Source: a virus
Length of the DNA stretch: 28,137 nucleotides
Virus record (IMG/VR): IMGVR_UViG_3300015368_000138
Coordinates: 1-28,137 of that record
Strand: one strand, 5' to 3'
Part shown: positions 11,763 through 18,230 of the stretch, one piece after another
Position numbering within the stretch: the stretch's first letter is position 1
Layout: each line of letters opens with the position of its first letter
Made by a program: the position numbers and the translations under genes
Notes under the pieces: model-generated
Databases searched by the model: none
Seen by the model: only the letters and a program-made list of their open reading frames with translations
What the model was told of the DNA's origin: nothing

Positions 11763-13289
11763 TTATGCTCTAATTGGAATGCATTTACTAAATACCTTAT
11801 CTAAATAATCTTTAGCTTCGGTAAATGTTGCTGTGTTGGGCGAGGGGTGGCCCATTTTTCTTAACCAGTTCATCTGCTTTGGGGTTGCTAACTTGGAATT
11901 GCTACGAGTAAAAAGCAAATCAAGAAGTTTGGAAGCGTGTCCTCGATTACGAACCTTTTCGCAGTCAAATCCAAATCCCTTGAGTGCTTTAAGTTGGCCT
12001 TCGGTAGCGGTCATCGAGTGCCATTTCATCGTCTCGGAATAATCGGCCAGCTGCGTGTTGTGTAAATCCAGTGCGTAGGATATAGGATCTATCAAGCTCT
12101 TACTGCGGTACTTTGCTATACCTGCCTCGCGTGCTAACTTCTTTCGCAGAGATTCCTCTCGAATCTTCTGAGCGTCTACCTGCATTACTTCTAAATCTAA
12201 AGCCTCTTGAACATTATTCATATCAGACATAATGTTTGCTACTTCGTCGCTCTCGGCGATTAAGTGAGCAGGCTTAATAAGTGACAGCTTACCTGTGAGC
12301 CATAACGGATCTATGATAAGCAAATGATCTTTATTAGGCATAGGACGAGTGCCGCGCCCGATCATCTGAGAATATAAAGCTCTGCTGCGTGTAGGTCTTA
12401 AAACCATTAGGCAGTCGATAGAAGGCTCGTCGTAGCCTTCAGTAAGTAACATGGAATTGCATAAAAGATTACACTCGCCGCTAGAAAATCGTGATAGTAT
12501 TTGCTCACGATTATTTGAATTGCCGTCGATATGTTCTGCCTTCCATCCGCGAGCTTTACACATCTGTGCAAAAGTTTCGCTAGTCTTAATTAACGGTAAA
12601 AAAGCTAGTACCTTACGGCCTTTAGCGTGCTCAGTTAATGAGTCTGCCGCAGCTTCCAAGTACGGTGCTAAAGCCTCACCTAAATCTGCATCATTAAAGT
12701 CGCCTGCAATCGTGCGAACATTTGATAGATCTATATTTAATGGTACTGATTTTACAAAAATCTTTGACAGGTGCTTTTCTTTAATAAGGTCTAACAGTCC
12801 TATCTCGTAGGCCACTTCTTCGAAGTAGCTGCCTAAATTCTTTTTATCTCCTCGGTCAGGAGTTGCTGTAACGCCTAAAATTTTAGCTCCTTTAAATGCT
12901 GCTAATACTTGCTGATAAGATTCTGATAAAACATGGTGCGCCTCATCAATAATAACTGTAGCAAAGTTATTAGCCCACTTGTCTAGCCTGCGCTGCATAG
13001 TCTGTATGCTCGCTACTATTACTTGAGCATCGCCTGCGTGATGTTCGCCCTGCTCGCGGTCTGCGACTATTCCAGTGCTACGCTGTAATTTATCTTGAGC
13101 CTGTTTAATTAGCTCCTCGCGATGTGCAAGTATAAGTGTCCTGCCGTGTCCGAGTCTTGCTTTAGCTATCTGACTGAAAACTATTGTTTTACCGCTACCA
13201 GTTGGCTGAACAAGCAGTAGCTTATCATAAGTTTTCCATTTATCTAGGATAGCATTAATAGCTTCCTGTTGGTATGTTCTAAGTTGCAT
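11763..13289 (-). CDS. SF2 DEAH-type DNA helicase
   Basis: The 508-aa protein has the SF2 core: Q-like motif RTYQQEA (4-10), Walker A PTGSGKT (29-35), DEAH (115-118), TATPD (141-145) and motif VI QMIGRGTRP (308-316), in normal order and spacing. This matches the RecG/type III restriction-helicase family, as in UvsW-like phage helicases that remodel recombination intermediates. The C-terminal 190 residues are helical and contain a second helicase-associated region (QMNWLRKMGHPSPNTA). It follows the DUF669-type gene and precedes small regulators. It may unwind or reanneal DNA during recombination-dependent replication. Confidence 0.9.
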   Translation of the reverse strand: MQLRTYQQEAINAILDKWKTYDKLLLVQPTGSGKTIVFSQIAKARLGHGRTLILAHREELIKQAQDKLQRSTGIVADREQGEHHAGDAQVIVASIQTMQRRLDKWANNFATVIIDEAHHVLSESYQQVLAAFKGAKILGVTATPDRGDKKNLGSYFEEVAYEIGLLDLIKEKHLSKIFVKSVPLNIDLSNVRTIAGDFNDADLGEALAPYLEAAADSLTEHAKGRKVLAFLPLIKTSETFAQMCKARGWKAEHIDGNSNNREQILSRFSSGECNLLCNSMLLTEGYDEPSIDCLMVLRPTRSRALYSQMIGRGTRPMPNKDHLLIIDPLWLTGKLSLIKPAHLIAESDEVANIMSDMNNVQEALDLEVMQVDAQKIREESLRKKLAREAGIAKYRSKSLIDPISYALDLHNTQLADYSETMKWHSMTATEGQLKALKGFGFDCEKVRNRGHASKLLDLLFTRSNSKLATPKQMNWLRKMGHPSPNTATFTEAKDYLDKVFSKCIPIRA

Positions 13290-13345: not shown

Positions 13346-13750
13346 TTAAAACGGATTAGAAGATTTGATATATCTCTTAATCCGTAAGATTGTCTTTTCT
13401 GCGCCGTCCTTCACATAGGTCTCGGCTTCAAGTTTAATGTCGACACGTTTGCCGATAAATAAACTAAAGAAATCAACGAAAACTTGACGTTTGCTGAAAT
13501 CATATTCCGAACCTTCTGGAATGGTGACCTCTGGAATTGCGGCTAGTAACGCATTTACGCGCCAGTAGACCGATTCCTTATTTAGGAAATTATCTGTAGC
13601 CAAACATCCGTCATCTGACCTTAAAGCAAGAGTGACGATACCGTCGCCCTTTGAGGTCAAGCCGGGTTCGGCTTTAACAATTTCAACTGTGTATTGGCCG
13701 GGATTGTTAAAATATTTAACCTCGGCTGATTTGCGATCTATCTTGAACAT
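13346..13750 (-). CDS. DUF669-type, ssDNA-binding-like protein
   Basis: The 134-aa protein has the pattern of DUF669 phage proteins: PGQYTVEIVKAEPGLTSKGDG near residues 17-36, then a β-rich segment ALRSDDGC, and a C-terminal part ending KTILRIKRYI. DUF669 proteins occur next to recombination genes and are thought to bind ssDNA through an OB-like fold, but activity in this one is not shown. It lies between the exonuclease and helicase genes. The conserved features are the GQY/V start, the S/K-G-D-G turn and a central W. Confidence 0.8.
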   Translation of the reverse strand: MFKIDRKSAEVKYFNNPGQYTVEIVKAEPGLTSKGDGIVTLALRSDDGCLATDNFLNKESVYWRVNALLAAIPEVTIPEGSEYDFSKRQVFVDFFSLFIGKRVDIKLEAETYVKDGAEKTILRIKRYIKSSNPF

Positions 13751-13777: not shown

Positions 13778-14572
13778 TTAAGCAGATGCCCAATCGGGTA
13801 ACTGCATGGGTTGTATATCACTGCCATAGGCTGGCCACGAATCAAAGTCTTCACAACTTTTAAACATCCTCAACTGAGTCATACGATCAGCTTCGGCTCT
13901 AAATAGTTGATTCTTACTTACTTCGTAGACACCCACTCCATATGGAGCCTCTTTCTCAACAGCGATAAAAATGAATTTAGAAACTTTTAGTCCTGCTTGT
14001 TCAGCTAGGAATAAGTAATGTGCCGCCTGCGTTAGATATCGGTAGCGCATTACTGAAACTCCAAATTGTGAAGGCGATGCATCTTCCGTGGTCTTTAAAT
14101 CCACGATGCAATCTTCGCCTACAAAATCAAAACGACCTTTGCAATATACGTTCGTCACTGGACACTTTGCAAACACACTGACTTCAGCTTGGCCTGTTTT
14201 TAGTAATTTACTAGCAGCACGATGCGAAGATACTGCTACCACAATATCTTTAATCATCAAGATATCATCGGCTGAAATAACTTCCTTGCCTGCATTTTCT
14301 TTAGTAAAGATTTCATAGGCTAGCTTACCATCTTTGGTACGCCTATCCACAATTGGAGCCACTGCTGTAGAGCCTGCAAAACGTATAGGTTCAAATACTG
14401 CCATATGCACCAGACTACCGATACGCATGGCCTCTGTAGGTTCAGGTTTTTCAGTGAGCCAGTGTTTATAGTGCATAGGACTGCGCTTGAATTTATCTAA
14501 ACCAGATTTGGATAATCCTTCAGCGGCATGGTACTCGCTCGCTGGCATATCATATTTAATGGTCGCGTTCAT
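13778..14572 (-). CDS. RecE/exonuclease VIII-type PD-(D/E)XK nuclease
   Basis: The 264-aa protein matches the RecE-type nuclease domain (DUF3799/PDDEXK-like). The motifs appear in order: ASEYHAAEGLSKS near the N-terminus, AMRIGSLVH (48-56, histidine 56), E130, GRFDF with D149, IVDLKTT with D158 and K160, and YLTQAAHY with Q182. These form the metal-binding PD-(D/E)XK core, which resects dsDNA 5'-3' to expose strands for an annealing protein. The RecT-like gene lies upstream, with the Dps-like gene between them. No Walker motif is present, so it is not an ATP-driven nuclease. Confidence 0.9.
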   Translation of the reverse strand: MNATIKYDMPASEYHAAEGLSKSGLDKFKRSPMHYKHWLTEKPEPTEAMRIGSLVHMAVFEPIRFAGSTAVAPIVDRRTKDGKLAYEIFTKENAGKEVISADDILMIKDIVVAVSSHRAASKLLKTGQAEVSVFAKCPVTNVYCKGRFDFVGEDCIVDLKTTEDASPSQFGVSVMRYRYLTQAAHYLFLAEQAGLKVSKFIFIAVEKEAPYGVGVYEVSKNQLFRAEADRMTQLRMFKSCEDFDSWPAYGSDIQPMQLPDWASA

Positions 14573-14575
14573 GGA

Positions 14576-14980
14576 TTAGGCCAATCTTTGACGTAGCTTA
14601 TACTGACGTATTTCGGAATCGTCTGCAATGCCTTGCAAAAGATTTTGCGTTCCATCCGTCATGTTAGGAACGTACTCTTTGACGCAATCGCAGATATTTC
14701 GTTCAAAATTAAATAAAGTAGTAAAGAACATTTCTGAATCTACATCTTTAATGGCATAGCTTCCAGCGTCCTTGCCTGCTTCTTTTGTCACACGATTTAA
14801 ATCTACATCGTATCCTAATCCTATCATACGCTCAACTACTGAGTCGTATGCAGATTCATAGGCAGCGTATGCTTTCGATAAAAATTTGTGGTCAGAGAAA
14901 AAGGTTTTACCCTTTGTCATATTATGAGCGTTGTGCGCGTATAGTTGCGCACTGCGGAGTATTATAGCTAGGTCGTGCAT
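14576..14980 (-). CDS. Dps/ferritin-like protein
   Basis: The 134-aa product has the Dps helix-B to helix-D signature: HNMTKGKTFFSDH (residues 19-31), followed by DSVVER (46-51). Measured spacing, H19-12-H31-15-D46-4-E50, equals the ferroxidase set His51, His63, Asp78 and Glu82 of E. coli Dps. The ligand corresponding to Asp67 is Ser35. The C-terminal helix (GTQNLLQGIADDSEIRQYKL) also fits the Dps fold. It lies between a RecT-like and a RecE-type gene, 1-3 nt from each. Members store or oxidise iron and bind DNA; either role during infection is inference. Confidence 0.8.
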   Translation of the reverse strand: MHDLAIILRSAQLYAHNAHNMTKGKTFFSDHKFLSKAYAAYESAYDSVVERMIGLGYDVDLNRVTKEAGKDAGSYAIKDVDSEMFFTTLFNFERNICDCVKEYVPNMTDGTQNLLQGIADDSEIRQYKLRQRLA

Positions 14981-14981
14981 A

Positions 14982-15761
14982 TTAGTTTTTGTTAATTATT
15001 TCTAAAAAAGCGTTTGAATTTGATAAAATCTTCTTTGCGTATTCTTCGTTCAAATCACGAAAGTTTTGGCCTACCCAAATTTGTCCTTTGGATATTAAAT
15101 AAGCATTCACTTTTGCTTCATGTGGTTCAAGCAATGCTTCAAGTTTTTGTATAGTAGTAAATTCAACTTCAATTGCAGGCACTTCAGTGATCGGCAAACT
15201 CTGGACTAAAGGTGCAGTCGAATTAAAATCGCTTACTTCCTCTGGCGTATAGACTCCAAACACTACTTCTGGAGCTAGCAGGCGTACTGCCTCGGAAATA
15301 ACGCGAGCCGTCAGCATCTGCCGTGTAAATTTGCGCCAGTTATCTTTTAGTTTACCATCGCGACCGATTGCTACTCCGTTGGCCACGAAGTCCTCTAATT
15401 TGGCCGTAAAGGTCAGAGAATTGTTTTTTAAGGTAAAGGTAGCCTCTACTACCTTATCGTCGCGCCTAGTCCATTTAACGCTGCCTCCTGAAATCTGAAA
15501 CTTGGCAAGCATAGCATCTGAGCGCATGGATAATTTGCCGTCAATAACATGGTAAGTCTTGGCCAGTTCAAGTGGCGGTTTACGCTCTGATAGACATTGT
15601 AGGGCAAGCACTTGGCCTTGCTCTACTTTGGAACATCCGAACATACCAGAGCTTGCTATGATCTCGCCGAGTTTTTCTACGGCTAGAAGAGGATCATTCA
15701 TCCTCGAATATATATCGCCCTCTTGGGCTGTGACTAACGATTGGTTGTATTGAGTTGACAT
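14982..15761 (-). CDS. RecT-like single-strand annealing protein
   Basis: The 259-aa product shows the pattern of RecT-type proteins: LALQCLSERKPPLELAKTYHVI (about 51-72, quoted in part), DGKLSMRSDAMLAKF (about 73-87), then WRKFTRQMLTARVISEAVR with VVFGVYTPEEV (about 140-178). Such proteins coat ssDNA and anneal complementary strands made by a 5'-3' exonuclease. The C-terminal 80 residues are helical and diverge. Pairing with a nearby RecE-type nuclease supports the call. The ERF and Redβ families are less likely because they lack this SMRSDAML/YTPEE pattern. Confidence 0.75.
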   Translation of the reverse strand: MSTQYNQSLVTAQEGDIYSRMNDPLLAVEKLGEIIASSGMFGCSKVEQGQVLALQCLSERKPPLELAKTYHVIDGKLSMRSDAMLAKFQISGGSVKWTRRDDKVVEATFTLKNNSLTFTAKLEDFVANGVAIGRDGKLKDNWRKFTRQMLTARVISEAVRLLAPEVVFGVYTPEEVSDFNSTAPLVQSLPITEVPAIEVEFTTIQKLEALLEPHEAKVNAYLISKGQIWVGQNFRDLNEEYAKKILSNSNAFLEIINKN

Positions 15762-15799: not shown

Positions 15800-15852
15800 G
15801 GGGCAGCAGCCTTGCGAGTTAAACTATTTAATCGCTGACAGGCTGCTGTCCC
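15800..15852 (-). promoter_or_regulatory. Mutually exclusive hairpins at the resolvase/RecT junction
   Basis: GGGGCAGCAGCC (15800-15811) and GGCTGCTGTCCC (15841-15852) form a 12-bp stem, 11 Watson-Crick pairs and one mismatch or wobble depending on strand, around a 29-nt loop that holds the resolvase stop codon. A second, shorter stem GACAG/CTGTC (15836-15840 with 15845-15849) uses part of the same arm, so the two cannot coexist. The ATG of the RecT-like gene is 39 nt from the long stem. On the plus strand TTTTT follows, as in a terminator, but no plus gene is nearby. Confidence 0.4.
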
Positions 15853-16304
15853 TTTTTACTCATGGCATAGTCCAAAATCAAAAGGGAGTCTGAAGTTTTT
15901 AACGTAATTTTGTGGGCAGGATAGCGACGCATAGCTTCTGACTTAAGTTTGTTTTTCCACTCAGTTGTTGATGCGCAGTCTTTTTTAGTGCCAAGGTGAA
16001 AATGCTTCTGCCATTCCTGCGGTGTAACCAGTATAGTTCTTATGTTGAGAGTTCCTATAACACCTTCGATGTAACCAAAATTACGAAATAAAACTGCGGT
16101 CGTAGAGCTAGGTATATTGTTACCGACATACTTGGGTACATTTTCAATGTACGCTTCGCACTCATAGCATCCTTTAATAAGATCGCGAAAGAACTCAATT
16201 AAATCGGGCATTGACTCAGGCATAGGTATGCAACCGATTAGATTGTCTTTGTTCCACGCTATGCCGCCTGACGCTCCGGGATCTATTCCAATAGTAATTT
16301 TCAT
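15828..16304 (-). CDS. RuvC-like Holliday junction resolvase
   Basis: The 158-aa product shows the RuvC/RNase H-like nuclease motifs: GIDPGASGG with D8 (6-14), YIENVP with E54 (52-57) and a C-terminal DSLLILDYA with D139 and D145 (139-147). It cuts Holliday junctions that would otherwise block packaging of branched phage DNA. Like other phage RuvC-type enzymes, it is shorter than E. coli RuvC (173 aa). It follows a 26-aa peptide gene and precedes the RecT-like gene. Helices after the E54 motif (VLFRNFGYIEGVIGTL) fit the usual fold. Confidence 0.9.
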   Translation of the reverse strand: MKITIGIDPGASGGIAWNKDNLIGCIPMPESMPDLIEFFRDLIKGCYECEAYIENVPKYVGNNIPSSTTAVLFRNFGYIEGVIGTLNIRTILVTPQEWQKHFHLGTKKDCASTTEWKNKLKSEAMRRYPAHKITLKTSDSLLILDYAMSKKGQQPVSD

Positions 16305-17789: not shown

Positions 17790-18230
17790 TTACTGTTTTT
17801 GATAACGTGATCCAAACCACCAGAACAAGCTAGTAAATGCACCGAATACAATCTGATTTAACATTTCTTTTTGTGATTCAACTGGTGACACAGAAAAGAC
17901 ATAAAGCAGCACAAAGAGTAACGCCCAAGTGATGCCCGGCCGTGTAAATCCTTTAAACGCATCTACCGCTAGATAGACATTGACCATTATAGGCGATGCA
18001 TTTGCAGGTATTTGAATTGATCCATTATTTTCCTGAGACTTAGAAAATGCATTCCAAGCCGCCTCTTTTTCAGCAGCCGCAACCTTGGCCTGCATCAACA
18101 TGACATCTACCTCTGCATCTTTCTTTTTGCGCCAAGTTTCAAATATAGATGTTCCAATATGTAATATTGAACCTACAACTCCACCACTTGCTGCGTTAAA
18201 TAATATGTCTGCTAAGTTCATTGTTGCCAA
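17790..18230 (-). CDS. Probable holin, 3TM type
   Basis: The 146-aa product has a weak N-terminal hydrophobic helix (about residues 9-28), a charged central region (WRKKKDAEVDVML ... AAAEKEAA) and two stronger spans at about 98-115 (PGITWALLFVLLYVFSV) and 124-140 (LNQIVFGAFTSLFWWFG), ending GSRYQKQ. This matches the family known as 3TM holins of gene-transfer agents and phages, which form membrane lesions that release the lysis enzyme. The ATG overlaps the stop of the 1409-aa gene by 13 nt. Since the lysozyme carries its own signal peptide, the holin may depolarise rather than transport. Confidence 0.75.
   Translation of the reverse strand: MATMNLADILFNAASGGVVGSILHIGTSIFETWRKKKDAEVDVMLMQAKVAAAEKEAAWNAFSKSQENNGSIQIPANASPIMVNVYLAVDAFKGFTRPGITWALLFVLLYVFSVSPVESQKEMLNQIVFGAFTSLFWWFGSRYQKQ

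Follow-up and report, generated by a model that had tools for sequence, protein, structure and literature searches.

A Dps-like miniferritin with a putatively rearranged iron site encoded between recT and recE in a viral genome

Dps-like proteins of phages were reported in 2019-2021 for Lactobacillus phages (Iacchus, Semele, LP65) and for the gut 'Gratiaviridae', and were proposed to guard against oxidative stress or damage (PMC6669764, PMC8008677). In canonical Dps proteins the Asp67 residue binds iron site B only via water, and it is dispensable in Nostoc Dps4 (PMC6675082). Dps4 and TeDpsA have a His-type ferroxidase centre, a variant site that likewise lacks the acid at position 67 (PMC6675082). 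Most of the Dps proteins studied bind DNA by flexible disordered tails (PMC13319912). The Pseudomonas proteins PA0962 and PA4880 have a Dps fold, which in the case of PA0962 is stated to lack a basic tail for DNA binding (PMC10002758). DNA cleavage in vitro was reported for both, such that PA0962 is a tail-less Dps acting on DNA in vitro (PMC10002758). Two phage proteins of the domain family DUF5856 (phrog_858) matter here as well. Over-expression of T4 rI.-1 slightly prolongs lysis inhibition (PMC6832632), and ORF078 of the Dickeya phage LIMEstone1 was detected in virions by mass spectrometry with 3 peptides and 28% coverage (PMC3296691, Table 2).

Here we describe a Dps-like gene in a 28,137-nucleotide viral sequence, which as a whole is called the window in the following. 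In the literature searched, which covered the field in part, we found no earlier report of its swapped iron site, of a link to DUF5856 or of a placement between recT and recE.

Gene order and predicted fold

A preliminary description had placed a Dps/ferritin-like gene between a recT and a recE gene. We confirmed all three genes at the coordinates listed in Table 1. They lie on the minus strand in the transcriptional order RecT, Dps, RecE, with intergenic gaps of 1 nt (RecT/Dps) and 3 nt (Dps/RecE). The Dps gene is probably co-transcribed with recT and recE as one unit, as had been suspected. A scan for promoters and terminators at the locus returned the same counts as in shuffled sequences.

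Table 1. Genes of the window around the Dps-like gene, and homologues in other genomes
Feature	Location	Strand	Basis or remark
DNA helicase, downstream	11763..13289	-	phrog_16 E 5e-91
SSB-like single-strand DNA binding protein	13346..13750	-, same direction	phrog_378 E 1e-6
RecE / exonuclease VIII-type PD-(D/E)XK nuclease, 264 aa	13778..14572	-	PF12684 118 bits; phrog_412 'exonuclease VIII' 272 bits; solid identity
Dps-like miniferritin (predicted), 134 aa	14576..14980	-	PF00210 (Ferritin) 28.7 bits, above the cut-off of 24.5; phrog_3636 'DNA binding protein' E 6e-9; AlphaFold2 pLDDT 95.4; MrgA 2chp
RecT-type single-strand annealing protein, 259 aa	14982..15761	-	PF03837 25.3 bits, marginal (cut-off 24); phrog_561 E 2e-18, clear
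Holliday junction resolvase, upstream of RecT	15828..16304	-	phrog_1770 E 7e-20
Holin-like membrane protein	17790..18230	-	weak PF11351 GTA_holin_3TM E 1e-4, below cut-off; synteny
Ligand-less slot gene X between RecT and RecE	L158, L131, L159, L160-L163		
T4 rI.-1	L112:2465-2851		DUF5856 member, beside rI
LIMEstone1 ORF078	L110:4052-4405		DUF5856 relative, Dickeya phage

The AlphaFold2 model, which was built from the family alignment, was confident (pTM 0.90, pLDDT as in Table 1). It contains the helices A (2-21), B (27-54), BC (61-76), C (82-106) and D (109-133), i.e. a four-helix bundle plus the BC helix of the Dps type, in agreement with the ferritin fold proposed previously. Among known structures Bacillus subtilis MrgA (2chp) was the top VIA-align match (Z 18.9, rmsd 1.6 over 130). 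Other Dps and bacterioferritin chains followed closely, with many Dps chains at Z 17-19. The best PDB sequence matches were Dps/NapA chains as well (3kwo, E 2e-4). Based on the modelled fold we identify the gene as a Dps-like miniferritin. With bacterial Dps, MrgA and HP-NAP it shares the BC-helix fold, the H-x11-H-x14-D-x3-E spacing and the Pfam Ferritin domain. It stays, however, far under the NCBIfam Dps cut-offs (16.8 bits against the 114 needed for the equivalog NF006975). Since its sequence has no acid at position 67, we class it as Dps-like and not as canonical Dps.

Searches of IMG/VR provided a family of 35 distinct proteins including that of the window. A profile of this family (A3) retrieved Dps sequences, among them HP-NAP and MrgA, with E values from 1e-9 to 1e-7. 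One member lies on a contig of a Bacteroidetes MAG, which is probably a phage contig and was the only close relative found in the bacterial genomes searched. Among cultured phages, tblastn with the Dps gene gave a best E of only 0.04, with L056 likewise giving no match, and INPHARED held no DNA-level match to the three-gene unit. A sister phage is 87% identical with the same gene order, and the Dps gene evolves under purifying selection relative to it (dN/dS 0.05). With 35 members and such a sister the open reading frame is not a chance finding.

The earlier proposal that the protein condenses DNA is not borne out by its composition: in contrast to bacterial Dps it has neither an N- nor a C-terminal DNA-binding tail, and it is acidic (pI 5.8, net charge -3). 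Because some tail-less Dps proteins act on DNA in vitro, we regard DNA contact as unsupported, without excluding it.

Ligands of the iron site and relatives in DUF5856

The residues noted before, i.e. H19, H31, D46 and E50 together with Ser35 at the position of E. coli Asp67, were all confirmed in the window protein. We take the four ligands to be equivalent to H31, H43, D58 and E62 of the Listeria protein. They are invariant throughout the family (35/35), which therefore has the two His, the Asp and the Glu of the ferroxidase site at Dps spacing, and so are H16 and E42. The family differs from bacterial Dps in three respects. Position 35 (E. coli 67, Listeria 47) has lost the acid, being Gly, Ala or Ser in 33 of the 35 members; position 42 (E. 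coli 74) is an invariant Glu; and the Trp adjoining the first His (E. coli Trp52) is replaced by Asn or His in all members. For comparison we used 13 bacterial Dps sequences from genomes of the same phylum as the MAG. All of these have the Trp and 12 have Glu at position 35, while Ala or Leu prevails at position 42. The single sequence with Gln35 carries Glu42. Another bacterial set (L059-L088) had been dropped, as none of its sequences carries the Dps ligand motif; these are probably ordinary ferritins. The Lactobacillus phage protein that we examined has a canonical site (Trp20, Asp35, Phe42), in contrast to the swapped site found here.

Comparison of the family profile with that of DUF5856 (A5) using hhalign resulted in an E value of 2e-9, and the DUF5856 profile finds Dps chains first when run against the PDB. 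Judged from these profiles, DUF5856 proteins including T4 rI.-1 and LIMEstone1 ORF078 are Dps-like and distant kin of the family. They share the HxxH motif and the pattern of second-helix His, Asp and Glu. They differ by an A-B loop that is shorter in most of them, by the location of the T4 gene in the rI lysis-inhibition operon and by the association of ORF078 with virions. LIMEstone1 and four others have Gly35/Glu42, T4 has Asp35/Pro42, and JSE, KpF2 and Maroon have Glu35/Gln42, such that the complementarity of the two positions extends to DUF5856.

Over 60 Dps-type sequences from five groups an acid occurs at position 42 only in 40, at position 35 only in 18, at both in 2 and at neither in none. 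Thus 58 of the 60 have exactly one acid across the two positions (Fisher p = 2e-13 with kinship ignored). On the tree each position switched at least 5 times. In tree-independent pairs differing at position 35, position 42 changed in the opposite direction or not at all, and never in the same direction; only 2 of these pairs lie on supported branches, which is too few for significance in a phylogenetic sign test.

Glu42 is located one turn ahead of Asp46 on helix B and may provide the carboxylate that otherwise comes from Asp67. We therefore read the site from its sequence as rearranged, with a relocated carboxylate, rather than as broken: the loss of an acid at position 35 goes along with an invariant Glu42, and Asp67 is water-bound and dispensable in Dps4 (PMC6675082). 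The missing ligand with altered iron chemistry that had been suggested earlier is thus better described as a family-wide exchange. The arrangement also differs from Dps4/TeDpsA, where Asp78 is changed to His; the window protein keeps the corresponding Asp46 and adds Glu42.

The recT-recE position and other genomic settings

With the Dps protein as bait the order RecT-Dps-RecE was found only in the 87% identical sister. Using RecT and then the slot gene as bait we obtained seven contigs with the order RecT-X-RecE (six distinct slot sequences; in L131 the contig stops before RecE), whose RecT is 70-73% and whose RecE is 50% identical to that of the window. Counting X, the gene order is hence not confined to the present locus, a confinement that the preliminary description had held to speak against its proposal. 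X shares only 27-29% identity with the window Dps. It carries the changes H16 to C/T, H19 to Y, H31 to E and D46 to E, which leaves acids at positions 31, 35, 46 and 50 and no His. Its AlphaFold2 model is nonetheless a ferritin-type bundle (pLDDT 95, Z 15-16). The median dN/dS of X was 0.14, compared to 0.07 for RecE and 0.10 for RecT, indicative of purifying selection on X. A clade of X and the window Dps was not rejected (p-AU 0.69). X might bind another metal or none. Since fold, place and selection were kept without the histidines, X argues for a role other than ferroxidation in these phages, perhaps together with its neighbours. In this branch the gene was probably not retained for iron oxidation.

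These data raise the possibility that the Dps-like protein is a structural partner of RecT/RecE, i.e. a scaffold or an adaptor of annealase or exonuclease, with iron chemistry being secondary and the iron site lost in one branch. A second, separate link to recombination genes points the same way: in four contigs (L040, L045, L047, L048) genes for a PD-(D/E)XK exonuclease and for a Sak4-like annealase come after the Dps gene. At 27-29% identity X could, however, be a replacement. Furthermore, Dps is missing from RecT relatives with 61-68% identity, in which recT and recE either adjoin one another or have an unrelated 89-aa gene between them, and at 42% identity several relatives have an unrelated 80-aa gene there. 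The slot is thus an accessory position, which argues against Dps as an essential part. Most family members lie away from recombination genes, and by a crude estimate recombination neighbours are not in excess. For the earlier idea of a coupling to recombination the evidence is mixed, the gene order recurring in the sister and with X. Taking the X data and the accessory slot together we consider such a partnership rather unlikely. The broader notion that a ferritin-fold protein is a working part of the phage RecT/RecE system, of which one branch shed the iron site and kept that part alone, appears distinctly unlikely to us.

Outside this slot the family occurs in diverse settings; several labels are from PHROG matches, and those such as capsid, holin or lipoprotein were read from the sequence by us. 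The Dps gene lies between portal and ClpP-like head protease in L028 (L054 looks alike) and near capsid-type genes in L024. In L010 (8001-8408) and L012, with L044 alike, it lies in antisense orientation between the genes for the terminase large subunit and the portal, which implies its own promoter there. In six contigs (L002, L009, L015, L025, L031, L035) its neighbours are holin-like or lipoprotein genes, and in L002 and L009 a homologue of the window's holin-like gene is immediately upstream. Some members are near tail genes. L019 (2004-3992) contains two copies of the same Dps gene with its flanks, inverted relative to each other, which probably arose during assembly. Given these settings and the varying contents of the recT-recE slot among RecT relatives, there is an even chance that the place is incidental, the gene being a mobile accessory in a permissive slot with the same function anywhere, which is compatible with a ferroxidase. 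That a ligand-less homologue has stayed in this slot across long divergence speaks against an incidental place.

A role in the virion is plausible for some family members. In L050 (7893-8711) and L057 (7896-8714) the Dps domain is part of a 272-aa head-module fusion protein; an N-terminal RLRELS motif is common to this protein and its neighbours. The N-terminal tag scored 35 in L057, with 0 of 571 controls. In L034 the Dps protein (1535-2017) has the N-terminal tag MxLDFSxxI in common with the neighbours at 475-1233 and 1212-1541 (scores 42 and 38; 0 of 557 controls), which suggests common targeting of the three. Three BFVD entries that carry the annotation prohead protease (A0A6J7WPK9, A0A6J7XDU5, A0A6J7WIS1; 333-763 aa) match the Dps model, such that Dps-protease fusions seem to exist. 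In L051 (3094-9323) several head-region proteins begin with a MNKYSxxYxxKLA-like stretch resembling capsid-targeting leaders, and the Dps protein carries three ETIEKVAS repeats; as a shared tag the N-terminal repeats were not above controls. If carried in virions, the window protein would act at the start of infection or within the particle, as the detection of ORF078 in virions and the head-module relatives may suggest. ORF078 is only a distant relative, though, and the window protein itself is untagged, lies in the replication/recombination region and gives no pointer to such a role. We regard this as very improbable for the window protein.

Proposed function and implications

For the window protein we slightly favour an accessory ferroxidase of the Dps type that is expressed with the replication genes, taking the X data and the accessory slot into account. 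The ligand-less homologue in the RecT-X-RecE slot and the exchange of the Dps Trp for Asn or His speak against it. Such a miniferritin would probably assemble as a 12-subunit cage with intersubunit ferroxidase sites from His19, His31, Asp46 and Glu50, in which Glu42 would substitute for the canonical Asp at position 35. Produced together with RecT, RecE, SSB and helicase from a gene filling the accessory slot between recT and recE, it would oxidise Fe2+ with H2O2 or O2 and store the iron. In this way it may lessen Fenton damage during phage DNA replication and recombination, the DNA itself being left uncoated.

With its rearranged iron site the family would represent a branch of Dps-like miniferritins that is widespread and specific to viruses, and the rearrangement can be checked by two point mutants. 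Through the relation to this family, T4 rI.-1 and the other DUF5856 proteins, whose annotations do not go beyond hypothetical protein or putative regulator, would gain a structural identity. Finally, the ligand-less homologue between recT and recE makes a service of the ferritin fold to recombination directly testable.
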